DNA of 25,840 bases. Source: a virus. The notes under the pieces are model-generated. The model did no database searches. It was not told the origin of the DNA and saw only the letters and a list, made by a program, of their open reading frames with translations. The stretch covers positions 1 to 25,840 of the IMG/VR virus record IMGVR_UViG_3300035701_005943. One strand, written 5' to 3'. The position numbers were made by a program, and so were the translations under genes. This document shows positions 1 to 25,415 of this stretch, in pieces; positions within the stretch are counted from its first letter, which is position 1, and each line of letters opens with the position of its first letter.

Positions 1-252
1 GTTTACACCAACATCAAAAGAAACTCTACTAAAGCTAGGCACTGGTGCAAAGCTAATAGGTGCGAAACTAGGTGGTTCGCAGAAACATAAAGGACTTAGA
101 CTCAAGTTTACACCAACATCAAATGACACTTTTCCGATACTTGGGAAAGATGCAAAGCTAATAGGAGCAAAGCTTGGCACTTGGCAGAAACTTATACAAT
201 TAAAGCTTGGTATTTGGCAGAAGCTTACACATTGAAAACTTGGTGGTTCACA
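1..252 (-). repeat. 11-residue PSF/SF repeats nested in a 105-bp tandem repeat
   Basis: Residues 382-465 of the preceding gene consist of 11-residue units with the pattern x-x-x-P-S-F-x-x-[IV]-S-F, several starting with Cys. A larger unit of 35 residues (105 bp) starts again at residue 439: one full copy covers 82-186 and a second, cut by the window edge, covers 1-81. Each ends with the same DVGVN. At DNA level the string gtttacaccaacatcaaa occurs at 1-18 and 106-123, exactly 105 bases apart. The array probably continues beyond the edge. Confidence 0.8.
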
Positions 253-1395
253 GAATCTAATACATTCTAGGCTTGGTGCTATAATGCTAATTATACTTGG
301 TGGACAACATCCAACAAGAGATATTCTGCTAGGTAATTCGCATCCTACTAATGAAATAATACTTATTCTACAAGGGCTTATGACTCTTATAATTTGGGGT
401 GTTTTGCACGCTTCAATTACAGATATTATAACACTTGGCACACAAGTAGTCATTGAGGTTGATATTGGGCAAAGTTTGGATTCAGGAAACTGCAAAGGCG
501 GCAAATTAAACAAAGGTCCAGGGCAAATATTCTTATTTGGTATAAATTCTGGCCAATCTGGTACTGTGGGTACAGCGATTACAAAAGGAATTGAAGGATT
601 TGGTAATGTTGGTGCATTACAACCTTCATTTGGTGTTGTTGGCATTTGTATAAGCGTACAAGTAGGTGTTGTTACTGTTACTGTTGGATTACTGCCGCTT
701 GTATAGGTTACAATACCAGAAAGTTGTGTTGTCGTAGAATTACCATCGCCAAAATCTACTTCAAATGCAGTATAATCACCAAAAATTCTTACGCAATATT
801 CAGCTATATTGCCCATGATGTTAAATTCAAATTCAACATCAGGACAAGCATCATCAGGAACTGGCGCACATCCTAGCATTGTTGTTAGTGATTGATGAAG
901 AGAGGCGGTGAAGGCTATGTCCGCAGCGGCCATTGTATTTTTAGGAACAAAGTTCTTCCTAACATTTTGCTGTATTTTAAGGTTTGTGCCAATTTTAAGC
1001 ATGTCCGTAATGTCGCCAATTGTATTTTCTATTGCGACAATTGCATCTACTAATTGGTTGTGTAATTGTGCTACTACATTGGCACATACAGTTGTGCCAG
1101 CAACATATGTACTAGGTTCTCCTTCTACACCTCTAATACAGTCTTTTAGTTGTATTGTTTTGCCATTTTTGTCCTTAACTACGCTATCGTAATAGATAAG
1201 TTCTTTTTCAATAGTGACAAACCCATTATCAGCCCAAATATCCGCGTCATTAGCGAGCTTGGGATGTATGTCTATTATATCATTTGTATCACTTAAATTA
1301 TTGGCTAATATTGTTTGCGCACTATTATTGGTACTAAATAAAGTATAATTAGAATCTAGAGCAATCGGGAATAAAACACGGGGTATTGACTTCAT
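1..1395 (-). CDS. Repetitive, Cys-rich fibre-type virion protein, 3' end outside the window
   Basis: The frame stays open for 465 codons from an ATG at 1395 to the left edge, so the C-terminus is missing. Residues 59-105 resemble a segment common in phage tail proteins (G-x-x-x-I-E-x-E-x-I-Y-Y, then an RG and a GT). Residues 111-126 hold an amphipathic helix with the core HNQLVDAIVAIE, also present in the next two upstream genes. A PKD-like strand with DFGDG lies at 214-218. From about residue 250 the protein is rich in Pro, Ser and Cys, and from residue 382 it becomes an 11-residue repeat of the type C-x-x-P-S-F-x-x-I-S-F. It is the last visible gene of the tail operon, 38 bases after the preceding stop. 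No Shine-Dalgarno is visible before the ATG, only AT-rich DNA. A fibre or spike-like appendage is an inference; no receptor-binding domain is recognised. Confidence 0.75.
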   Translation of the reverse strand, partial: MKSIPRVLFPIALDSNYTLFSTNNSAQTILANNLSDTNDIIDIHPKLANDADIWADNGFVTIEKELIYYDSVVKDKNGKTIQLKDCIRGVEGEPSTYVAGTTVCANVVAQLHNQLVDAIVAIENTIGDITDMLKIGTNLKIQQNVRKNFVPKNTMAAADIAFTASLHQSLTTMLGCAPVPDDACPDVEFEFNIMGNIAEYCVRIFGDYTAFEVDFGDGNSTTTQLSGIVTYTSGSNPTVTVTTPTCTLIQMPTTPNEGCNAPTLPNPSIPFVIAVPTVPDWPEFIPNKNICPGPLFNLPPLQFPESKLCPISTSMTTCVPSVIISVIEACKTPQIIRVISPCRISIISLVGCELPSRISLVGCCPPSIISIIAPSLECIRFCEPPSFQCVSFCQIPSFNCISFCQVPSFAPISFASFPSIGKVSFDVGVNLSLSPLCFCEPPSFAPISFAPVPSFSRVSFDVGVN

Positions 1396-3542: not shown

Positions 3543-4531
3543 GTGACTATAATTCCTTCTGGCAAATGCACTCTTTTTGTTTTGTTATTAGCAAGTCTTA
3601 TCATTAATGATGGCACATAATTACCTTCTGCTGTGTAACGATGTGTTATTGTGTGAATGTTTGGGTTACTCATCGTTATGTCTGTGCCATCTCCAAAAAA
3701 CCAATGTCTTTCTGCAATATCTCCATCACTTTGATCTACAAACTCAAAATCAGTATTTACAGACCCTTGCAAAGGTGTAACATAAAAAAATGATGGAAGT
3801 TGCTCATTATTTACTTCTATATAATCACTTTTTTCAGTTAAACCTTGTGGACCATTTGGAGAAATAACTGTTAATTTAATTGCATACTTTCCCTCATCTT
3901 GATAAACATGGATTGGGCTCTTTTCCGTGCTTGTTGTGCCGTCCCCAAAATCCCATAAATATCTTCCGCCATATCCAGTGGAAAAATTATGAAAAGTTAC
4001 AGTCAAAGGGGATGGTCCCATTCTTGGATATGCTTTGAAAACTGGTTTTGGTGACAACCACTTGTTTTCCAAATAGTTTAATATACCGTTAATTGAATCA
4101 GCAGATGGATTAGCTTCTAAGCCAATTTTTTTCTGAATCTGTATTACTGCATCTTTTAATGCATTGTGGTGTTCAGCCATTAATGGGCAAGAAACTTTGC
4201 TGCCAGATGGCCAAGTATTAATAGATGAACCACCATAACCTCTTTGTAACATAATTAGATGATCGCCACTTTTTTTTGCATAGAAAATGACTTCAAAAGA
4301 ATCTAAAAGATTGGTCGAATTAGTTGGAGTTATTTTTATGATGCCGCTATTAGGAAATTTACTTCCATCTTGAAGTAGTATATATTTGCCATTAATAGAA
4401 AGCGTTTGTCTTAATATATTTTCAGCATTATTTTTCGCTTCATGTAAGTTTAACTTAGAATCTTTCCCTTTAGGGAACACAGACAAAGCACCTTCTTTAT
4501 GTAATTTATTAATAGACAACTTATTTTTCAT
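3539..4531 (-). CDS. Two-PKD-domain fibre-type virion protein, 330 aa
   Basis: Residues 30-118 form a beta-rich head with RG and a GS/GT-type turn, followed by a helix with core HHNALKDAVIQIQ (121-133) and a linker ending near 160. Two clear PKD domains follow: 163-240 with WDFGDGT at 193-199, and 247-329 with FFGDGT at 278-283. It looks like a shorter version of the next gene, ending after the second PKD domain where that one carries a further 340 residues. The start has AGAGGA upstream and lies inside the last codons of the coiled-coil gene (11-base overlap), so the two are probably translationally coupled. A role as a tail appendage subunit or adaptor is inferred from the domains and the position. 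Confidence 0.75.
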   Translation of the reverse strand: MKNKLSINKLHKEGALSVFPKGKDSKLNLHEAKNNAENILRQTLSINGKYILLQDGSKFPNSGIIKITPTNSTNLLDSFEVIFYAKKSGDHLIMLQRGYGGSSINTWPSGSKVSCPLMAEHHNALKDAVIQIQKKIGLEANPSADSINGILNYLENKWLSPKPVFKAYPRMGPSPLTVTFHNFSTGYGGRYLWDFGDGTTSTEKSPIHVYQDEGKYAIKLTVISPNGPQGLTEKSDYIEVNNEQLPSFFYVTPLQGSVNTDFEFVDQSDGDIAERHWFFGDGTDITMSNPNIHTITHRYTAEGNYVPSLMIRLANNKTKRVHLPEGIIVT

Positions 4532-5195
4532 TGTTTCCTCTTAAGGTTTTGACGCTCGCTTTTGCATTAGTGCTTTCTATCATTTGCATGATTTTGTTTT
4601 TTACTTCAGATTCTTGGTGAAGAGATAGTGCTGTCTTTAAAGTATCTGGACTTAAAGGCTGATTAAAAAGCAGTCTTAGATTAATTTCTTCTGAAACTTT
4701 TGCTTCCCAAAGCTCCTTTTGAGAGTCGTAATCATCAAAATCCTTTAATTCTTCCACTTGCTCTAAAGCTTCAAAAGCCTGTACAAAAAATCTTGCTTCT
4801 TGAACTACAAATTCTAGTTGCCTTTTTAATCTACTTATATTCTTATTTATTGATCCCTTCCTCCTTTTTATTTTTCTTGCTTTAATATCTTTTTCTTTTT
4901 TTAATATTTCTCCAAGTGCTTTGATGCTGTATTGAGTGTTTTCCTCATCCATTTTATCTTTCAATTCTTGTAATTCCATGAGTTGTAATTCATCTTCTAA
5001 ATCTTCGATTTGAAGTGTTATATTATCAATTGTTTCTTTTCTGGATTGTAATTCAGTTAGACATTGCCATAATTGTGATTGTGTGGTAGGCTGCTTGCCT
5101 ATGACAAAGTATTTCAATTGGTAATAACTGTGCCGATTTTCTGGCGCTTTTTCTACCAATTTGTCTATTTTTTCTAAAATTTCTAAATTTGACAT
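4521..5195 (-). CDS. Coiled-coil protein of unknown function, 224 aa
   Basis: This is a highly charged, mostly helical protein. Residues 55-110 and 115-165 look like long coiled-coil helices with a Lys/Arg-rich stretch (KARKIKRRKG) between them. No enzyme motif, signal peptide or membrane segment is visible. It is first in a tightly overlapping set of four genes with the three fibre-type proteins, so it may be an assembly factor, chaperone or connector for them; that is inferred from position only. The ATG has a strong AAGGAG eight bases upstream. The plus-strand endonuclease gene separates it from the rest of the tail operon, so transcripts from upstream must pass through that gene in antisense, or a local promoter must serve this gene. 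Confidence 0.7.
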   Translation of the reverse strand: MSNLEILEKIDKLVEKAPENRHSYYQLKYFVIGKQPTTQSQLWQCLTELQSRKETIDNITLQIEDLEDELQLMELQELKDKMDEENTQYSIKALGEILKKEKDIKARKIKRRKGSINKNISRLKRQLEFVVQEARFFVQAFEALEQVEELKDFDDYDSQKELWEAKVSEEINLRLLFNQPLSPDTLKTALSLHQESEVKNKIMQMIESTNAKASVKTLRGNNEK

Positions 5196-5210
5196 TCGAT
5201 TTCTCCTTGT

Positions 5211-5218
5211 TATTTATA
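5211..5218 (-). promoter_or_regulatory. TATAAATA element, possible T4-type late promoter
   Basis: Read on the minus strand, these bases are TATAAATA, the T4 late promoter core. They lie in the 40-base gap just upstream of the coiled-coil gene. With T4 spacing, however, transcription would start at about 5205, inside the AAGGAG ribosome binding site at 5203-5208. The same octamer also occurs by chance inside genes in this AT-rich window, so the call is weak. Confidence 0.2.
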
Positions 5219-5235
5219 ATAGTGAGGCCCTAGTC

Positions 5236-6678
5236 ATGACAAGAAATAATTATAAAGAAATGATTGATAAAAAATTTGGCTTATTATACATTGAAAATGT
5301 AATTAAAAAGGAAAATAAAACTTTTATTTTGTGCAAATGTGATTGTGGAAAACATTTAGAATTATGTCCCTACCCCGTATTTAAAAAACTTATTGTTTCT
5401 TGTGGATGTTATAAAAATAGAAATTTAGAAAAAGGTCGTATAAGAATAGAAAATTTCATATCTTATGATGAAATGTTAAAGGAAGTAAGTAAAAATAAAA
5501 CAGATAAACAAATAGCAAAAGAACACGGATTCAGCAGATTGACTATTGGCTTGTTGCGACGAAAGTATGGAATTAAATCTAAATTTTCTGATAAAAAGTC
5601 AAGTGTTAATGAGATGTTACTAACAAAAGAACAAAAAGAAATCATTATAGGAACCATTTTTGGTGATGGTAGTATTAATAATACTGGAAATTTGAGAATT
5701 GGGCATTCAATTAATCAATATCCATATATTTATTGGCTACATCATAAGCTTAAATCAATATCTTTCAATTTGTGCAGTAATGTAAAAACTAATTCATTTT
5801 CATTTGGCACCAGATCATTAGATTTTTTAAAAGATTTAAGAGAAAAATTATATCCACATGGAATTAAAATTGTTACAGAAAATATTTTGCAGTTATTGAC
5901 GCCATTATCTTTGGCCATTTGGTTCATGGATGATGGCGGATTAATGGGATCGCAAAACTTTTTAAGTACGGAAGGATTTACTCACACAGATAGAAAAATT
6001 ATAACTGATTATTTTTGGAATAAATGGGAACTTAAAACAACAATTAGAAGACATTTTAGTAAAAAACAATCAAAGTATTATTATGCCCATTTTTTTAATG
6101 CGGAGAATTCTTTTAAATTAGCACAAATTATTAAATACCATTTATTGCCTAGTATGTTATACAAAATAAGAAAAGATACAAGAAAACATGTTGTTTATCT
6201 TGCTGGAGGGATGCAAAGTAGTCCAGATGGTGGAGTAAAATGGCGTAGAAACCTTAGATTGTTATTAAATCAAAAAGGATATTATTGCATTGATCCAACC
6301 AAAGAAGAAAGCTTTATGTTATTAAACGAATGTTGGAAAAATGATATTGAAAATAATTTTGAATTGTTCCAAAAAAACATGAGAAACATCATTGTTAATG
6401 ATCTGGATTTTGTTGATAAATCAGAATCAATAGTTTGTTTATACGATGAATTTTTGGGTGGTGGTAGTTATCATGAAATAGGCGAAAGTTACCTTAAAAA
6501 CAAAAAGTTGTATATAATTAATATCAATAAATTACCATTATCAAAATTAAGTTGGTGGGTTTTAGGATGTGCTACAAAAGTTGTAAATACATATGAAGAA
6601 TTACTTAGTTTATTCCCAGATGTAAATAATGAAAAATATATTAGAAAAAATGGATTACTAGGCAAAAAACACAAGTAA
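5236..6678 (+). CDS. LAGLIDADG homing endonuclease fused to a nucleoside 2-deoxyribosyltransferase-like domain, 480 aa
   Basis: Four parts are visible. Residues 33-58 form a Cys cluster (C33, C35, C37, C56, C58) typical of a small zinc ribbon. Residues 85-112 look like a helix-turn-helix (KQIAKEHG...). Residues 130-310 are a two-motif LAGLIDADG domain with IIGTIFGDG (137-145) and LAIWFMDDG (226-234), and with LYPHGIK between them as in the LAGLIDADG_2 family. Residues 317-460 match the nucleoside 2-deoxyribosyltransferase fold: VVYLAGGM, then WR at 336-337, then GYYCIDP, then GGGSYHEIGES with E414 at the place of the nucleophile. The Asp usually just before the GT-like turn is Gly here. A start at 5161 is possible but would run through the divergent gene's start; the ATG at 5236 has GAGG eight bases upstream. 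The gene lies against the orientation of the tail operon, as free-standing homing genes often do. What the transferase half does is unknown. Confidence 0.85.
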   Translation: MTRNNYKEMIDKKFGLLYIENVIKKENKTFILCKCDCGKHLELCPYPVFKKLIVSCGCYKNRNLEKGRIRIENFISYDEMLKEVSKNKTDKQIAKEHGFSRLTIGLLRRKYGIKSKFSDKKSSVNEMLLTKEQKEIIIGTIFGDGSINNTGNLRIGHSINQYPYIYWLHHKLKSISFNLCSNVKTNSFSFGTRSLDFLKDLREKLYPHGIKIVTENILQLLTPLSLAIWFMDDGGLMGSQNFLSTEGFTHTDRKIITDYFWNKWELKTTIRRHFSKKQSKYYYAHFFNAENSFKLAQIIKYHLLPSMLYKIRKDTRKHVVYLAGGMQSSPDGGVKWRRNLRLLLNQKGYYCIDPTKEESFMLLNECWKNDIENNFELFQKNMRNIIVNDLDFVDKSESIVCLYDEFLGGGSYHEIGESYLKNKKLYIININKLPLSKLSWWVLGCATKVVNTYEELLSLFPDVNNEKYIRKNGLLGKKHK

Positions 6679-6689
6679 TATGGAGACAT

Positions 6690-7166
6690 TTAGAAGAATC
6701 TGCCACCAATAACACCCTTGAATTTATAACCCTTTTCAATGGCTGTTGTCGCCCATATCAACTTACTATCGTTACCATCTGGGAATTCTCCTATATCAGT
6801 AAAAGCTTCTTTGTGTATCATCATGCCATTATCATGACTCATAAAGTTGTAATTAATGCTTCTTGTCTTTAGAACTGGAAATAATATGTCTTTATTTGAT
6901 TCTATGAAATAAGAATATTTAATATCAATTCGGCTTTTTATCCAACCTCCAGCAGGAATAATAAAATTCCACTCATTACATTTTGATTCTTTTAAACCCT
7001 TATTTATCATAGATGTAGAACTTGAACCTTCAACTACTGTTATTTCACTATTAGGGTAATAAGCTTTAATAGAATTTGTTGTGGATTTAAGTTGTCCAAT
7101 ATTGCTAGACGAACAAAGGACGATAAATCCACATTTTATGGATTTATATTGATATAATTTATACAT
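6690..7166 (-). CDS. Small GT-A/glycosyltransferase-2-like protein, 158 aa
   Basis: The order of elements recalls a shortened family 2 glycosyltransferase: a first strand GFIVLCSSS (13-21), a second strand SEITVVEGS (40-48), a third strand WNFIIPAGGWI (66-76) where the family normally has its DxD loop, then NGMMIHKEAF (113-122) followed by IGEFP, and a final strand FKGVIGGR. The metal-binding DxD is not present; PAGG stands in its place. At 158 residues it is much shorter than a usual enzyme of about 250-300. Activity is therefore doubtful, and a structural or binding role in the tail is possible. It lies nine bases after the fibre/adaptor-like gene with GAGGT before its ATG, so it belongs to the tail operon. 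Its stop is 12 bases from the end of the convergent endonuclease gene. Confidence 0.6.
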   Translation of the reverse strand: MYKLYQYKSIKCGFIVLCSSSNIGQLKSTTNSIKAYYPNSEITVVEGSSSTSMINKGLKESKCNEWNFIIPAGGWIKSRIDIKYSYFIESNKDILFPVLKTRSINYNFMSHDNGMMIHKEAFTDIGEFPDGNDSKLIWATTAIEKGYKFKGVIGGRFF

Positions 7167-13778: not shown

Positions 13779-16700
13779 TTAAGCATTACAACCAGCAAGA
13801 AGCCCAAGGAAGCCACTACAAAAATCATCATTAGCACATTTGCCAGTCCCAGGATTATCACAAGGCTGACCACTATCACATGCAGAACCACCACCAGTGT
13901 AACACACCGCTTGACAACCAACACCAACGCCACCACCAGCAACAGCAGTAGCCCAATCTACTGCTTTAAAACCTAATGCATATCTATCAGTTTGCGACTG
14001 CGTGCCACCAAAAATCGGTATTGGCGCTCCTAGCCATCCACCCGAATGTGTAGGGATGCCTAAATTTGCAAACTTTAATTCAGCGCCAGGTGCAGGTAAC
14101 GCTAATTTTAAAGTAGTAATATAACTACCTTCTTTGATTTGATGTTCTACTCCTTTTATAAACCACCCTTTATTTGTTAAGAAGCTATTGCATACACTAG
14201 TTCCTTTTTGTATGGAAAATATTGGACAATCTGCTTCATCAGCACCATCCATTAAAAATGATGGATTTATAAATATAATACCTACACATCTACCATATCC
14301 AAATATAGGTGAACATAACCAATCACTAGGATCGCCTTGAACCCTAAGCTCAGCTTCAATAGCATGAATCATTAAGTTGCCAGCTGTATGTAACATATTA
14401 GATTCCTGTGCTGCTAAATCTGGATTGTTTTGCTGTGCCATATTATCACTACCTGACGTTCCTGTACTAGTGACACTTCTACCACCAGATATGGCACAAC
14501 CTGTAGTATTTAATCCTTCAATATATTTTCTTTGATAGCCAGATATTGGTATGGAAGTACCACCAGCTTTTAAACCTAATAAGAAATGCCATCTTATAAC
14601 TGGATTAAATGCTAATACGGGGCTGCAATTATGCACAACCCCAGAATGGGTTATGAAGTTATGATAATTCTCTACATCAATGCAATAAACATATTTTGTT
14701 GTATTTTCTAGTTTTTCGCATCTTATTAAATCAAAAGTATCATAAAATATTTCTTGTTTTGTATTCAGTTTAATTTTCTTGACAAATCTATGCTGGTCTA
14801 GTATTTTATAATTCATTGATTCAACCACATATGGAGCAATTTTTTCTGATAAAACCTTAGTTTGCTCTATACTAAAATAAATTCTTGGATACTTGCTATT
14901 TTCTCTTCTGTAACACTTAATTCCCAATTCATGAATTTTATCTATTAATAAATCAACCTCTTCGTTTGTGAATCCACAAGTCGCTATTTCCGCTAATTTT
15001 TTATTTAATTTCAAATGTCCATCATCCATAAAAAGATAAGCTAAAGATATAATGCTAAAATCTTTTAATATATTCTTATTAATTATTTTGACACCATCAG
15101 GATAAAATAATTTTCTTAGTGACCTCCAATAAGGAGATGACTTAGATGTAATTTTAACAGTAGGGTATTTTTTTGTTGGTTTATCCATTACGTTTAAACC
15201 AAGCATTAGTGCCTTGTGTTCGATATATGATCTTTGTTTTTCACTATGGGCACAATGAAAACTGTAACTTTTATGACGAATATAACCATCACCTAGCATC
15301 ATCCCTAATACTGCTTGATGCACTTCCTTTGAAGACTGATAAGTACCAGAATTAATTTTATGTTCTACTAATTTTAAATGTCTTACCTCAACATAACCAC
15401 TGTCAGTTAGCATTGGATGATCCTCAGTGAAAATGGCTCCACTAATACTGCCTTTTCTTTGACGACTATTATGCAAATGAACTTTGACCATTTTCCTATT
15501 ATTTAATTTATTTCTATACCAATTCGTAATTCTAGACCAAGTTAAATCTCCATTTTCATCTACACAAGCCACCTTGCCAGAATATTTATGTCTATAAATG
15601 TAGTTAATTCTCTGCCAGCCATCTTCTGTTAAAACTACACTAGAGCCATTTTGACAATTACCACCATTCACAATATATACTGCCCTTAATCTTGAGTCCA
15701 AATCAGCTATGTTGCCTTGACAGTGTGGCACACCATTTGATGCCCATAAAATCATTGTACCTTTATCTGGTATATTTTCAGTTAAGCCATCTTGGACTAA
15801 TTCCTCACAACCATTTACTGGAAATTTAGTTAAATTATATGGGTCTTTTCTATCCAAAGTTGAATCATAATTGGCAGTAATACCTATTTTTTTCCCTGCT
15901 GAATTTATTCCGCCTGTTTGATCTATTGCCAAAACTGTTCCACTTCTAAGCCAATTATTTATAATATCTAAAGGTGTTTTTTCTCCAGTTGGCCATTTTG
16001 AATATGGCCCCTTACATTCATTGTCCATTGCAACGCCTGGTCTTTTAGCAAATCTCATGCTAGTTATCTCACTGTTGGCATTTAATGATAAAAATCTCAC
16101 TGCAAAAGGAGGCATTGAGTAAGACCCCAAAAGCCGTACTGCATCTGTAAAATACATGTGCTTGTTAAAAGGATTAGTATCATCGCCGTCTTGTCCAAGC
16201 ACTTTATTAAGCCTTTGTTCTTGACCCCTAACTAGCAAATCAACACCCTCTAATGTGTATATAAATTTACCATTTTCCCAATTTACTGTAATCATATCTG
16301 GCAAAAACCATAAAATAGGACTACAAATATTATATGCACTATTCAAACTAGGGTCTGGGGGGCCAGTTATATCAGGATCAGTTGCTCCTCTACCACATTG
16401 ATCGTTTGGACCTCCACCACTAATATACCAACCCCACTGCACTTTCATTCTATAACTACCTTTTATTGGCTTTGATGAACCTTCTGTATTAGTAGCCATT
16501 CTTTTAGCCCATTGGTCAAAGCTTCCACCTTTTTCATCAATAATTGTTATTCTACAACGATTACCACTATCAACTATTCCCCACCCATATTGAAATGACT
16601 TAATTGCAGCATTACATGTTTCTGCTGAACCTCCTCCCCCTTGCGATACATTGCCAGTAGTTATAATGGTTTGATTTGTTTTGTTTATTTGAGGCTCATT

Positions 16701-16958
16701 TCCCTCACAGTATTCTTGAAATGCAACTCTTACCCAAGGAGATTGTGCTGTTGCATTTAAAGGAGATTTTAAGATTGGCTCCCCTTTACTATTCAAATAT
16801 GGAAAACTAAAACTTGAACAAGTTGGGTTAGCAACAAATAAAAATCCAGCATCATACTCCATGAATTTGTTTTCAATGCCTGAGCAACAATATATGTCGT
16901 TGAAGTTGTCTTTAAGACTTGAACATTGTGTAAATACATCTACTACTGGTTCGGCCAT
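13779..16958 (-). CDS. Baseplate hub protein interrupted by an in-frame intein, 1059 aa (716 aa after splicing)
   Basis: Position after the gp53-like gene and before the spike gene is that of the hub (gpD/gp27 type). Near residues 935-953 the pattern VEHQIKEGSYITTLKL matches the closing strand seen in late control D/XkdQ-like hubs. An intein fills residues 435-777, bounded by Cys435 and by HN777/Cys778; splicing would join 434 and 282 residues. The spliced protein ends with a Gly-rich tail carrying seven Cys in the last 49 residues (C1015, C1019, C1027, C1033, C1041, C1047, C1057). Hub proteins form the trimeric ring on which the spike sits. The ATG is preceded by AGAGGA. The hub call rests on position plus the short C-terminal match, while the intein is certain from its motifs. 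Confidence 0.8.
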   Translation of the reverse strand: MAEPVVDVFTQCSSLKDNFNDIYCCSGIENKFMEYDAGFLFVANPTCSSFSFPYLNSKGEPILKSPLNATAQSPWVRVAFQEYCEGNEPQINKTNQTIITTGNVSQGGGGSAETCNAAIKSFQYGWGIVDSGNRCRITIIDEKGGSFDQWAKRMATNTEGSSKPIKGSYRMKVQWGWYISGGGPNDQCGRGATDPDITGPPDPSLNSAYNICSPILWFLPDMITVNWENGKFIYTLEGVDLLVRGQEQRLNKVLGQDGDDTNPFNKHMYFTDAVRLLGSYSMPPFAVRFLSLNANSEITSMRFAKRPGVAMDNECKGPYSKWPTGEKTPLDIINNWLRSGTVLAIDQTGGINSAGKKIGITANYDSTLDRKDPYNLTKFPVNGCEELVQDGLTENIPDKGTMILWASNGVPHCQGNIADLDSRLRAVYIVNGGNCQNGSSVVLTEDGWQRINYIYRHKYSGKVACVDENGDLTWSRITNWYRNKLNNRKMVKVHLHNSRQRKGSISGAIFTEDHPMLTDSGYVEVRHLKLVEHKINSGTYQSSKEVHQAVLGMMLGDGYIRHKSYSFHCAHSEKQRSYIEHKALMLGLNVMDKPTKKYPTVKITSKSSPYWRSLRKLFYPDGVKIINKNILKDFSIISLAYLFMDDGHLKLNKKLAEIATCGFTNEEVDLLIDKIHELGIKCYRRENSKYPRIYFSIEQTKVLSEKIAPYVVESMNYKILDQHRFVKKIKLNTKQEIFYDTFDLIRCEKLENTTKYVYCIDVENYHNFITHSGVVHNCSPVLAFNPVIRWHFLLGLKAGGTSIPISGYQRKYIEGLNTTGCAISGGRSVTSTGTSGSDNMAQQNNPDLAAQESNMLHTAGNLMIHAIEAELRVQGDPSDWLCSPIFGYGRCVGIIFINPSFLMDGADEADCPIFSIQKGTSVCNSFLTNKGWFIKGVEHQIKEGSYITTLKLALPAPGAELKFANLGIPTHSGGWLGAPIPIFGGTQSQTDRYALGFKAVDWATAVAGGGVGVGCQAVCYTGGGSACDSGQPCDNPGTGKCANDDFCSGFLGLLAGCNA
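14628..15656 (-). mobile_element. LAGLIDADG-containing intein, 343 aa, in the hub gene
   Basis: Splicing blocks are all visible. Block A starts at Cys435 (CQNGSSVVLTEDGW). Block B has GAIFTEDHPML with His514. Block F is VYCIDVENYHNF and block G is SGVVHN ending at Asn777, followed by Cys778 as the +1 nucleophile. Between the splicing halves lie two LAGLIDADG motifs, VLGMMLGDGYI (550-560) and LAYLFMDDGHL (639-649), with LFYPDGVKI between them. All key residues for splicing (Cys1, block B Thr and His, penultimate His, last Asn, Cys+1) are present, so the element looks active in splicing. Both acidic catalytic residues of the endonuclease (D557, D646 or its neighbour) are present too. Confidence 0.95.
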
Positions 16959-22697: not shown

Positions 22698-22907
22698 ATG
22701 ATTCTACAATTAAATCCAGTGATCCCACTCGAAACCCCAAAAGGAAAAGGTTTCGCTCATTTTATTCTGGATTACTCACAAGAACACGAAATGATATGGG
22801 TTGTTTTCATAGACTCAACGGGAGAATGCTGGTCATTCAGAAATCCTGAAATACGACTTCAAAAGAACATGACATTCGGTAGGAATGTTACACCGAAATG
22901 TTCTTAG
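22698..22907 (+). CDS. Small conserved-looking protein on the opposite strand, 69 aa
   Basis: Opening LNPVIPLETPKGKGFAHF, then W..F.DSTGECWSF, then NPEIR and KN.T.GRN give a pattern I know from small proteins of unknown function in many phages and bacteria, so this is probably a real gene and not a shadow. It starts 14 bases from the divergent conserved phage gene and ends inside the convergent HNH gene, with a 20-base overlap of the two 3' ends. No strong ribosome binding site is visible. The last few residues (VTPKCS) differ from what I expect for the family and could reflect a new end created when the HNH gene arrived; this is inference. Confidence 0.65.
   Translation: MILQLNPVIPLETPKGKGFAHFILDYSQEHEMIWVVFIDSTGECWSFRNPEIRLQKNMTFGRNVTPKCS
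22872..22901. repeat. Inverted repeat at the overlapping ends of two convergent genes
   Basis: The arms acattcggt (22872-22880) and accgaaatgt (22892-22901) can pair with one bulged base and an 11-base loop. The hairpin lies in the last codons of both the small plus-strand gene and the HNH gene. There is no T-run after it, so it is not a clear intrinsic terminator. Confidence 0.35.
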
Positions 22908-23994
22908 ATTTAAGCCATACTTCAAATTCTTCTTTAGAGTATTTAGCATTTTTTTTTAAATTATCTTCACCTGTCAACGGTTGAAGATTGTCGATGCAAT
23001 TAATTAGCTTGATATCAAGTAAATTATAATCACAAAAAGCTTTGACAGGGAAAATATGGTCAATATGCCAGATTTTATCTTTCACCGTGTCCCAATTTGG
23101 ATGACTGGTAATATGCTCTTGCAATTGTTTCCCGCTGTATCCTAGTAATTTATGCGTCTCGTCTTTTTTAACCATGTTAAGTTCTTTTAAGATACGTCTT
23201 AGCATAGCTCTACACCTTTGCATAAATTTTGGATCGCCAAATTTTGCTCGGATATTATCCAATTTACATTGCATACATCTTCTGCCTCTTTGAAAATTAT
23301 TATATGTTATTTGCGACTGGCGACCACATTTGCAAATGTAGTCTAATTTTTGTTGAGCATTAACATAAAAATTTGTTAATAATTTACATCTATTGTTCTC
23401 AAAAAATTGTTTTACTTGCTCATGACTTAACTTGAAAAATTCAGCCAATTTTCGCCGCCCACATTCTTTACACTTTTTCCCTTTTTGAAAATTATTCCAA
23501 CTTATTTGAAATATATTTCCACAAGAACATTTAGTTTTCATTTTTGTACGGGCATTTTTGTAATTTTCCTCAAGTAGTTCACATCCAATTTCAACATACT
23601 TTAACTTTAAGTATTCTATTGTAAGTTTTTTCTTTCCACCACAAACTTCACAATAACAACCTTTGTTATGGAATGAAGCAAACGTAATAGTGGAAAACTC
23701 TCCGCATTTACACCTGAATTTTAACCTTGTACGGTTGTTAACGTAAACATCTAAAAGTTCACAATCTCTATCTTTAAAACATGTTTCTACATATTCTTGA
23801 GAAAAAGATTGTTTCCTCGCCGCACAATTCCAACAATAAGAATTTTTAATAAAATTACAAAAACTATTTTGGGCAATCATACCACATTTACAACGATATT
23901 TTAAAGATCGTGCAGCGTTAGTATATTGCTCTAAAAGTTCACAGTCATTTTGTTTGTAAAATCCTTCGACAAATTCTTTTGTATATTGTTTCAT
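22888..23994 (-). CDS. HNH homing endonuclease with four tandem zinc ribbons, 368 aa
   Basis: Four similar units of about 60 residues each contain CxC and CxxC pairs: C35/C37 with C54/C57, C95/C97 with C115/C118, C156/C158 with C175/C178, and C221/C223 with C240/C243. Each unit also repeats a segment like CELLE-Y-N-AR before the first pair. They are probably DNA-binding modules of the kind seen in phage HNH enzymes. Residues 309-350 form the HNH domain: WHIDHIFPVKAF (H310, D312, H313), then IDNLQPL (N336) and N345, the usual H-N-N order. The gene stands alone without intron or intein and lies between two phage genes, typical of a free-standing homing gene. The start is the ATG at 23994; AGGA lies farther upstream than usual. 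Confidence 0.85.
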   Translation of the reverse strand: MKQYTKEFVEGFYKQNDCELLEQYTNAARSLKYRCKCGMIAQNSFCNFIKNSYCWNCAARKQSFSQEYVETCFKDRDCELLDVYVNNRTRLKFRCKCGEFSTITFASFHNKGCYCEVCGGKKKLTIEYLKLKYVEIGCELLEENYKNARTKMKTKCSCGNIFQISWNNFQKGKKCKECGRRKLAEFFKLSHEQVKQFFENNRCKLLTNFYVNAQQKLDYICKCGRQSQITYNNFQRGRRCMQCKLDNIRAKFGDPKFMQRCRAMLRRILKELNMVKKDETHKLLGYSGKQLQEHITSHPNWDTVKDKIWHIDHIFPVKAFCDYNLLDIKLINCIDNLQPLTGEDNLKKNAKYSKEEFEVWLKSKNISV

Positions 23995-24041: not shown

Positions 24042-24533
24042 TCAAGCTTTCATATATGTAAGGTTACTATAATCTCCCATTCCAAAATCGCTCGAACGAA
24101 CAGCAACCTTGCCAAACGGGTCTTTATCAAACTGTTTATCACGAATACCCTTTTCAGCTTCTGAACTCTTTTCAAAAAACTTCTTAACTTCAGTTACAAC
24201 TGCTTCTATTATTTTTTTACCTGCGTGTTCTGGCTTATAATCAGAAACTAGATCGGTAAACATATCCTCAATTGCCAATGGATATGCTTTACCAAATGGA
24301 TGAGTTTTTTCTTCTTTTTGAACTCTAAAGGAAAGTTGATTTCCTACTTTGTAGATTCTAATACCGTCAAAAAATGTATTCTTTTTTGGGTTGTAAACAA
24401 AAACATAAGGATCATCATCGTGGACGTGATCTTTAACCATAAAGCCATGCCCGCCAAGTATCTTCTCAATGATCTTCAACTGGTGTTTGGCTTCTCTTTC
24501 TTTCTTATCCAAAAATTCAAAAAACTTTTTCAT
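24042..24533 (-). CDS. Small charged protein of unknown function, 163 aa
   Basis: I do not recognise this protein. The N-terminus is a Lys/Glu-rich helix (KKFFEFLDKKEREAKHQLK), followed by a beta-rich middle with VHDDDPYVFVYNP and GIRIYKVGNQLSFRVQ, which could be a small alpha/beta domain, and by a charged helical end. There is no membrane segment, signal peptide or catalytic motif. The ATG at 24533 is chosen over a TTG directly before it at 24536; neither has a clear ribosome binding site. Its neighbours are a divergent methyltransferase gene 54 bases away and the HNH gene downstream. Codon use and strand fit the structural operon, but the role is unknown. Confidence 0.6.
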   Translation of the reverse strand: MKKFFEFLDKKEREAKHQLKIIEKILGGHGFMVKDHVHDDDPYVFVYNPKKNTFFDGIRIYKVGNQLSFRVQKEEKTHPFGKAYPLAIEDMFTDLVSDYKPEHAGKKIIEAVVTEVKKFFEKSSEAEKGIRDKQFDKDPFGKVAVRSSDFGMGDYSNLTYMKA

Positions 24534-24551
24534 CAAAGATATTTAGTAACA

Positions 24552-24580
24552 TTGACTTATTTTTTAGTATCATGTATCTT
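24552..24580 (+). promoter_or_regulatory. Possible sigma70-type promoter for the methyltransferase gene
   Basis: TTGACT at 24552-24557 (five of six to the -35 consensus) is followed after 17 bases by TATCTT at 24575-24580 (four of six to the -10 consensus). Transcription would start near 24587, one base before the methyltransferase ATG, so the message would be close to leaderless, which agrees with the lack of a Shine-Dalgarno. A chance match cannot be excluded. Confidence 0.35.
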
Positions 24581-24587
24581 ATGTTCC

Positions 24588-25415
24588 ATGAATGTTACAT
24601 CCAAACAAGAATGGAATGTTAGCAAACAAACAATTATCTGCAATGATTGTGTTGTAGAAATGAAGTCCATGCCAGAAAAGTCTGTGGATGTGATTGTTAC
24701 TAGCCCTCCCTATAACATTGGCATTAAATACAAAACCTATCAAGACCGTATGACTAACGAAGCATACTTGGCATGGCTTTGTAACGTCGGTCTAGAAATA
24801 AAAAGGATTCTAAAAGATGATGGTTCTCTATTTCTAAACATTGGTAACAAACCATCTCTGCCATATATTGCAATGCAAGTGTGCATGGAGATGGCGAAAA
24901 ATACTGGATTGATATTACAAAATAATATCGTCTGGGTTAAATCAATCACTATTAACAACACAAGTAGTGGTCACTTTAAACCAATTAATAGTAAACGTTA
25001 TCTTAATGACCAACATGAATCTATATTTCATTTTACAAAAACTGGACTCGTAACAATGGATCGGTTGGGTGCTGGTGTCCCATATGCTGACAAAAGTAAC
25101 ATTGAAAGATGGCATCACGGAGAAAAAGGAGGCAAGCCAGATTTAAGATGCCGTGGCAATACATGGTTTATACCTTATAAAACCGTGCAGAAAAAGAAAG
25201 AGCATCCAGCTGGCTTCCCGACAGAATTGCCTGAAATGTGCATTAAATTAGCTGGCATTAAAAATGATATGGTTGTTCTTGATCCTTTTCTTGGATGCGG
25301 TTCAAGTCTGTTGGCTTGTAATAAACTAAATTTAAATGGGATTGGAATTGAACTAGACGAAACTTATTGTCAAATGACTTTAGAAAGATTGAAAAATGAA
25401 ACTATTGAAAAATGA
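24588..25415 (+). CDS. DNA methyltransferase, beta-class N4/N6 type, 275 aa
   Basis: The catalytic motif IV TSPPYN is at residues 38-43 and the S-adenosylmethionine-binding motif I DPFLGCGS at 232-239, so motif IV precedes motif I, the beta-class order. HPAGFPTELP (206-215) is the usual motif X region ahead of motif I. The family (N6_N4_Mtase) methylates adenine N6 or cytosine N4 in DNA; TSPPY occurs in both, so the target base is undecided. Residues 120-195 form the variable target-recognition part. The frame stays open upstream to 24300, but that would overlap the divergent gene; the ATG at 24588 lies 20 codons before a conserved-looking core and is preferred. No restriction enzyme gene is visible beside it, so it is probably a solitary phage enzyme that protects phage DNA or affects gene expression. 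Confidence 0.88.
   Translation: MNVTSKQEWNVSKQTIICNDCVVEMKSMPEKSVDVIVTSPPYNIGIKYKTYQDRMTNEAYLAWLCNVGLEIKRILKDDGSLFLNIGNKPSLPYIAMQVCMEMAKNTGLILQNNIVWVKSITINNTSSGHFKPINSKRYLNDQHESIFHFTKTGLVTMDRLGAGVPYADKSNIERWHHGEKGGKPDLRCRGNTWFIPYKTVQKKKEHPAGFPTELPEMCIKLAGIKNDMVVLDPFLGCGSSLLACNKLNLNGIGIELDETYCQMTLERLKNETIEK

Follow-up and report, generated by a model that had tools for sequence, protein, structure and literature searches.

The window, that is, the whole stretch of DNA that was analysed (25,840 nucleotides; IMG/VR record IMGVR_UViG_3300035701_005943, positions 1 to 25,840), comes from an uncultured phage and is a 25.8 kb fragment whose minus strand carries a T4-like baseplate and tail-fibre region. 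The gene described here is on the plus strand, tightly enclosed by two genes of the minus strand (Table 1). Its ATG stands eight bases past GTGAGG, and the frame remains open until the TAA at 6676-6678; a TTG at 5161 is a less likely upstream alternative for the start. The first-pass annotation had placed here one uninterrupted frame with a zinc ribbon, a helix-turn-helix, two LAGLIDADG motifs and a domain like nucleoside 2-deoxyribosyltransferase (NDT), and its coordinates were right. A promoter scan around the start of the gene gave no more than expected by chance, and the T4-like late box TATAAATA was not enriched within the window.

Table 1. Positions of the fused gene, its parts and its flanking genes in the window
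Feature	Position	Strand	Remarks
Flanking gene g224	4521-5195	-	Divergent neighbour at the 5′ edge of the site
Upstream region and ribosome site of the fused gene	5198-5235	+	GTGAGG at 5222-5227; common to the stand-alone NDT gene of a close relative
Fused gene	5236-6678	+	Open frame, 480 aa: zinc ribbon, helix-turn-helix, LAGLIDADG nuclease and NDT-fold domain
Zinc ribbon (residues 1-66)	5236-5433	+	CxCxC...SCGC; match to phrog_374 (HNH endonuclease), 6e-8
Helix-turn-helix-like segment (about residues 75-115)	5458-5580	+	Model helices 77-85, 90-97 and 101-111
Two-repeat LAGLIDADG nuclease (residues 127-312)	5614-6171	+	Pfam LAGLIDADG_2; catalytic acids D144 and D232/D233
NDT-fold domain (residues 317-456)	6184-6603	+	Structure model and fold searches; D389, E414 (6475-6477), G408
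Flanking gene GT	6690-7166	-	Convergent neighbour, marks the 3′ side of the site; no Pfam match; putatively glycosyltransferase-like by eye

In profile searches, residues 134-276 matched PF03161/LAGLIDADG_2 (1.5e-33 to 3.7e-33; 115 bits, cut-off 25), and the catalytic acids of both repeats, D144 (5665-5667) and D232/D233 (5929-5934), were invariant in the nuclease alignment (A13), both known fused proteins included. Structure searches with the full-length model gave I-WcaI and I-SceI as the closest matches. An intein or a group I intron as the host of the nuclease was ruled out by the absence of splicing motifs and Rfam matches: the fused protein had no match to the Pfam Intein_splicing motifs, which do match the real intein of the window (13779-16958), the Rfam search of the window gave none, and the gene is intergenic, outside any intron or intein. 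The intein just mentioned is itself of the LAGLIDADG type and occupies residues of about 442-777 of a structural protein encoded on the minus strand (CQNGSSVV...GVVHN|C); the ortholog in G019, a 390 kb phage, is without it, and the phage of locus L001 has one.

The C-terminal half was weaker in profile searches, with PF05014 and PF15891 at E 0.004, both below cut-off; PF05014 scored 17.7 bits against a cut-off of 28.8, which the same part of the L001 ortholog exceeded (32.8 bits). The AlphaFold2 model of this half (pLDDT 86, pTM 0.82) matched the 2′-deoxyribosyltransferase 7o62 (Z 16.8, rmsd 2.8 over 134 residues), DNPH1 (Z 13.7) and MilB (Z 13.6), and the transferase fold predicted from the letters alone was therefore borne out. 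An in-frame ATG is present at M307, but no ribosome site for a separate NDT product is visible there, and since SMxYK often ends these nucleases, this internal ATG says little.

A search for the same two-part order, also suggested at the outset, recovered a second example, L001 (IMG/VR 3300020193_002337), from another metagenome, which has the same four parts in the same order and is 65% identical over 476 residues. Assembly artefact was therefore excluded as the origin of the fusion, and no stop or frameshift separates the halves. Between the window and L001, conservation is highest in the NDT half (73-79% identity). Pairwise dN/dS (NG86) was about 0.15 for the nuclease and about 0.14 for the NDT half, values that are only rough because dS is near saturation; both halves appear to be under purifying selection and hence maintained. 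These two fused proteins are the only ones known, and all data are metagenomic. L001 was the sole match when the fused NDT or the complete fusion served as query; the fused NDT gave nothing against named phages, the PDB (with a two-sequence profile), NCBIfam or PADLOC, and bacterial and archaeal genomes, scanned twice by a method that reaches close relatives only, yielded no relative. No report of such an endonuclease-NDT fusion was found in the open-access literature, which is weak evidence of novelty.

In an alignment of 54 phage members of the NDT family, Y321, W336-R337, D389, G410, E414 and W441 were invariant, and the DL...GxxxE motif with D389 and the nucleophile E414 was present in every member. 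The position six residues before the nucleophile, an uncharged Gly in both fused proteins (G408 in the window), was Thr in 43 members, Gln in six, Gly in two, Ser in two and Ala in one, and Asp in none. We take an Asp at this position to correspond to D92 of the L. leichmannii NDT, a hallmark of strict deoxyribosyltransferases. The equivalent residues S98 of DNPH1 and S97 of MilB coordinate the 5′-phosphate (PMC10603095, PMC4081090). The first-pass annotation had correctly read E414 as kept and the earlier Asp as replaced by Gly; as the Asp is absent family-wide and Ser binds phosphate in DNPH1 and MilB, its loss is not decay and fits a nucleotide rather than a nucleoside substrate. Judged from these residues, the replacement suggests a nucleoside-monophosphate hydrolase rather than a true transferase, and the domain is probably a 2′-deoxynucleoside 5′-monophosphate N-hydrolase of the DNPH1/MilB type serving the phage nucleotide economy. 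The nearest stand-alone relatives of the fused NDT are those of loci L086 and L140, a placement that rests on long branches; as read by sequence, the ORFs beside the former would encode dUTPase and dCMP deaminase, and that beside the latter dTMP kinase. The idea that the C-terminal half is a degenerate remnant was ruled out by purifying selection and the invariant active site, so that, of the first-pass description, the two-part protein with a transferase fold stands and the remnant of a host gene does not.

The normal resident of the site was identified from a PF05014 search among phages with related nucleases, which located G019, a close relative of the window (structural-region ortholog pairs mostly 59-89% identical) with a stand-alone NDT gene between orthologs of both neighbours and antisense to both. 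Two further scans with the NDT and the downstream neighbour as baits gathered about 100 loci, many of them on contigs of 340-530 kb, with 53 distinct NDT genes (two fused included), and 45 of these lay on loci with both neighbours; because the baits were NDT and flanking genes, locus frequencies are not population frequencies. At all 45, g224 was on the 5′ side and GT on the 3′ side, each on the opposite strand, the window and L001 being the fused two. Most of the 45 (e.g. L092, L093 and L100) were free of endonuclease at this site, and ten other loci had both flanks and no NDT, which indicates that the gene is dispensable. A stand-alone NDT is also carried by a 595 kb phage in GenBank (LR756511.1), whose baseplate protein is 55% identical to that of the window; in bacterial and archaeal genomes, a scan reaching close relatives only yielded no relative of the resident gene. 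The fused NDT is about 15-25% identical to the stand-alone copies. The first-pass suggestions of a captured neighbour gene, or of a host gene invaded by an endonuclease, were thus essentially right, since a stand-alone NDT normally occupies the site in related phages.

Elsewhere in the window, two further features were compared with G019: the first protein (1-400, minus strand) ends in PSFxxISF-type repeats, which are far more numerous in the ortholog from G019 (1449 aa frame), and an N4/N6 DNA methylase (24300-25415, plus strand; Pfam 4e-44) is 84% identical to the G019 copy.

Endonuclease genes were found at both edges of the NDT gene. Just upstream of it and on the same strand, L114, L142 and L201 each have a separate LAGLIDADG ORF that overlaps the NDT start; the overlap in L201 (...CGATGGGTAAATTAG...) contains both the ATG of the NDT gene and the TAG of the nuclease. 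The nuclease ORFs of L114 (33%) and L201 (29%) are among the nearest relatives of the window nuclease half after L001, and the helix-turn-helix part of the fused protein aligns with the same part of these separate endonucleases. An HNH ORF overlaps the NDT start in L174, overlaps the NDT end in L091 and directly follows the NDT gene in L148. Among all ORFs of the fetched loci, a set biased toward the NDT site, the zinc ribbon of the fused protein recurred only in L001 and in the HNH ORFs beside NDT (L148, L091 and L174). Between the final Tyr-Lys of the nuclease and the Tyr-Leu in the first strand of the NDT, 49-50 bases were counted by hand in L114 and L201, versus 30 in the fusion, and a deletion spanning the overlap and removing about 19-20 bases would fuse the frames.

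Other endonuclease genes and inserts were also noted. One gene from the fusion site, G019 has a separate LAGLIDADG ORF (L092, 3898-4938) overlapping the downstream neighbour at its start, and a 301 kb phage contig carries three consecutive LAGLIDADG ORFs (L002, 3510-6928). The window also encodes a 368-aa protein (22888-23994, minus strand), probably a further homing endonuclease, in which CxC...CxxC ribbons recur and the end is HNH-like; its G019 counterpart is shorter, with 317 aa. In L174 (5659-7849) and L136 (6374-8134), inserts separate the NDT gene from its downstream neighbour and contain DNA methyltransferase-like ORFs, with a ParB-like ORF also in L174, so that the spot downstream of NDT takes varied cargo.

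The trees of the neighbouring genes and of the NDT disagreed. By the neighbouring genes, the window grouped with L091/L092 (0.999) and a clade of the window with L001 was rejected (AU p 0.0001); by the NDT, the window grouped with L001 (100/99) and a clade of the two fused copies with L091 and L092 was rejected (AU p 0.001). From this conflict, it appears that the fused gene was transferred whole and took the place of a resident NDT. The proteins of the window and L001 agree with this in degree, the fused protein being 65% identical and the flanking proteins 38-56%. At the nucleotide level, the window resembles L092/L091 up to 5223-5228, just short of the start codon of the fusion, and the similarity to L092 returns only within the downstream neighbour; the 60 nt before the start are 86% identical to L092 (stand-alone NDT) and 54% identical to L001 (fusion). 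Taken together, the break and the L092-like upstream sequence suggest that the lineage of the window kept its own expression signals while the NDT coding sequence was swapped for the fused one. Co-conversion beyond the ORF was not seen, the flanks of the window and L001 showing no excess of L001-like similarity; a tract confined to the ORF is as would be expected of an old event, and would not be a positive mark of recent homing. The alignment that mixed both halves (A12), in which the NDT rows were misplaced, was left out of the prediction.

Stand-alone, overlapping and fused states thus all exist at one site, and in the window the fused gene sits in the exact place of the resident gene, behind the resident ribosome site. 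We consider it reasonably likely that a LAGLIDADG endonuclease lodged at the site became fused to the resident NDT, and that the fusion spreads by intronless homing that carries a replacement copy of an NDT, the latter a probable dNMP N-hydrolase. By this account, a free-standing LAGLIDADG endonuclease would lodge directly before the resident NDT-fold gene, its ORF would come to overlap the NDT start, and in one lineage the two would fuse. Phages with a resident NDT allele, or with its flanking sequence, would then be cut by the nuclease half, and repair of the break with the fused donor as template would exchange the resident NDT for the fused copy. Because the donor brings its own NDT, the recipient would keep the enzyme; the donor NDT itself is probably spared by its own nuclease, being strongly diverged from the resident copies (about 20-25% identity). 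No cleavage site of the fused nuclease was found.

Several other readings were weighed against this one. The nuclease half might no longer cut and might only help the NDT enzyme to bind DNA or to dimerise, as a domesticated extension or as an autorepressor of its own promoter. Homing endonuclease genes often decay once fixed, and fusion equalises the abundance of nuclease and enzyme, which an active nuclease would perhaps make intolerable; the invariance of the catalytic acids of both repeats in A13, the purifying selection on this half and the past mobility indicated by the tree conflict nevertheless make loss of cutting unlikely. It is also unlikely that the fusion is old and was inherited vertically, with the stand-alone genes of L091, L092 and others as later replacements or nuclease losses. 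Only two fused examples are available and the direction of change is not directly readable from them, but such a history requires replacement of the NDT by that of another lineage in many phages and in neither the window nor L001, which are not sisters by their neighbouring genes, and the window has kept an L092-like upstream region.

Other readings concern what the NDT half does. That it is a signal-handling or counter-defence domain of TIR-like fold, binding or degrading an NAD-derived or nucleotide alarm signal, would suit a conserved non-structural gene in antisense orientation, and TIR-APAZ structures do match the model (Z 12.7-12.8); we regard it as improbable, since NDT, DNPH1 and MilB structures match equally or better (7o62, Z 16.8), the active-site set of the NDT family is invariant and PADLOC gave no match for this half. 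Participation of the NDT half in homing, whether it senses nucleotides and times the nuclease accordingly or acts on DNA bases at the target, had been raised in the first-pass annotation as nucleotide sensing or base exchange and found no support. Retention of the in-frame fusion in two diverged phages, with the NDT half as its most conserved part, would be in keeping with such a part, yet most relatives have the domain as a separate gene with no nuclease, and the nearest stand-alone relatives sit in nucleotide-metabolism clusters, so that we hold it to be very improbable. Equally improbable is the stronger form, in which the fused protein is one machine whose NDT half reads or changes nucleotides and controls when or where the nuclease acts, and homing is tied to the dNMP pool; if true, homing would be linked, for example, to the breakdown of host DNA in the infected cell.

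At this site, where several endonuclease families adjoin the same gene, the steps from neighbouring endonuclease to overlapping pair to fused protein are visible. An endonuclease joined in one chain to a functional copy of the gene that it displaces would amount to a natural replacement drive. The analysis further marks out an unnamed antisense gene, widespread in jumbo-like phages, as a likely nucleotide hydrolase.

The system resembles the intronless homing of T4, in which SegF acts at soc/56, SegG at 32/59 and MobE at nrdA/nrdB (PMC2988022), in that a free-standing endonuclease gene lies beside a conserved phage gene, outside any intron or intein. The T4 endonuclease genes are promoterless cassettes that use resident expression signals, commonly overlap their neighbours (segC by 20 bp, segF by 11 bp, mobA by 23 bp and mobC by 24 bp), and in the case of SegF target gene 56, which adjoins its own insertion site (PMC2988022). 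The T4 enzymes, however, are GIY-YIG or HNH endonucleases, encoded downstream of the overlapped gene as separate proteins, whereas here a LAGLIDADG endonuclease is upstream of the gene, is fused to it and replaces a highly diverged resident allele. The nuclease half is likewise close to the LAGLIDADG_2 monomers I-SceI and I-WcaI, its best matches in structure and sequence, which have two repeats in one chain; these are intron-encoded, whereas the present nuclease is free-standing and has a zinc ribbon on its N-terminal side and an enzyme domain on its C-terminal side. The NDT half shares with DNPH1/Rcl and MilB/BcmB the fold, the active-site Asp and Glu and the lack of an Asp six residues before the nucleophile Glu, where DNPH1 and MilB have Ser, the fused proteins Gly and the phage family mostly Thr; unlike DNPH1 and MilB, the phage NDT family is marked by an invariant Trp-Arg pair. 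DmtZ, found in Z-genome phages, is an NDT-family enzyme that acts on dNMP and is sometimes fused to dUTPase (PMC12884076); it is likened here by description, its partner being a nucleotide enzyme and not an endonuclease.
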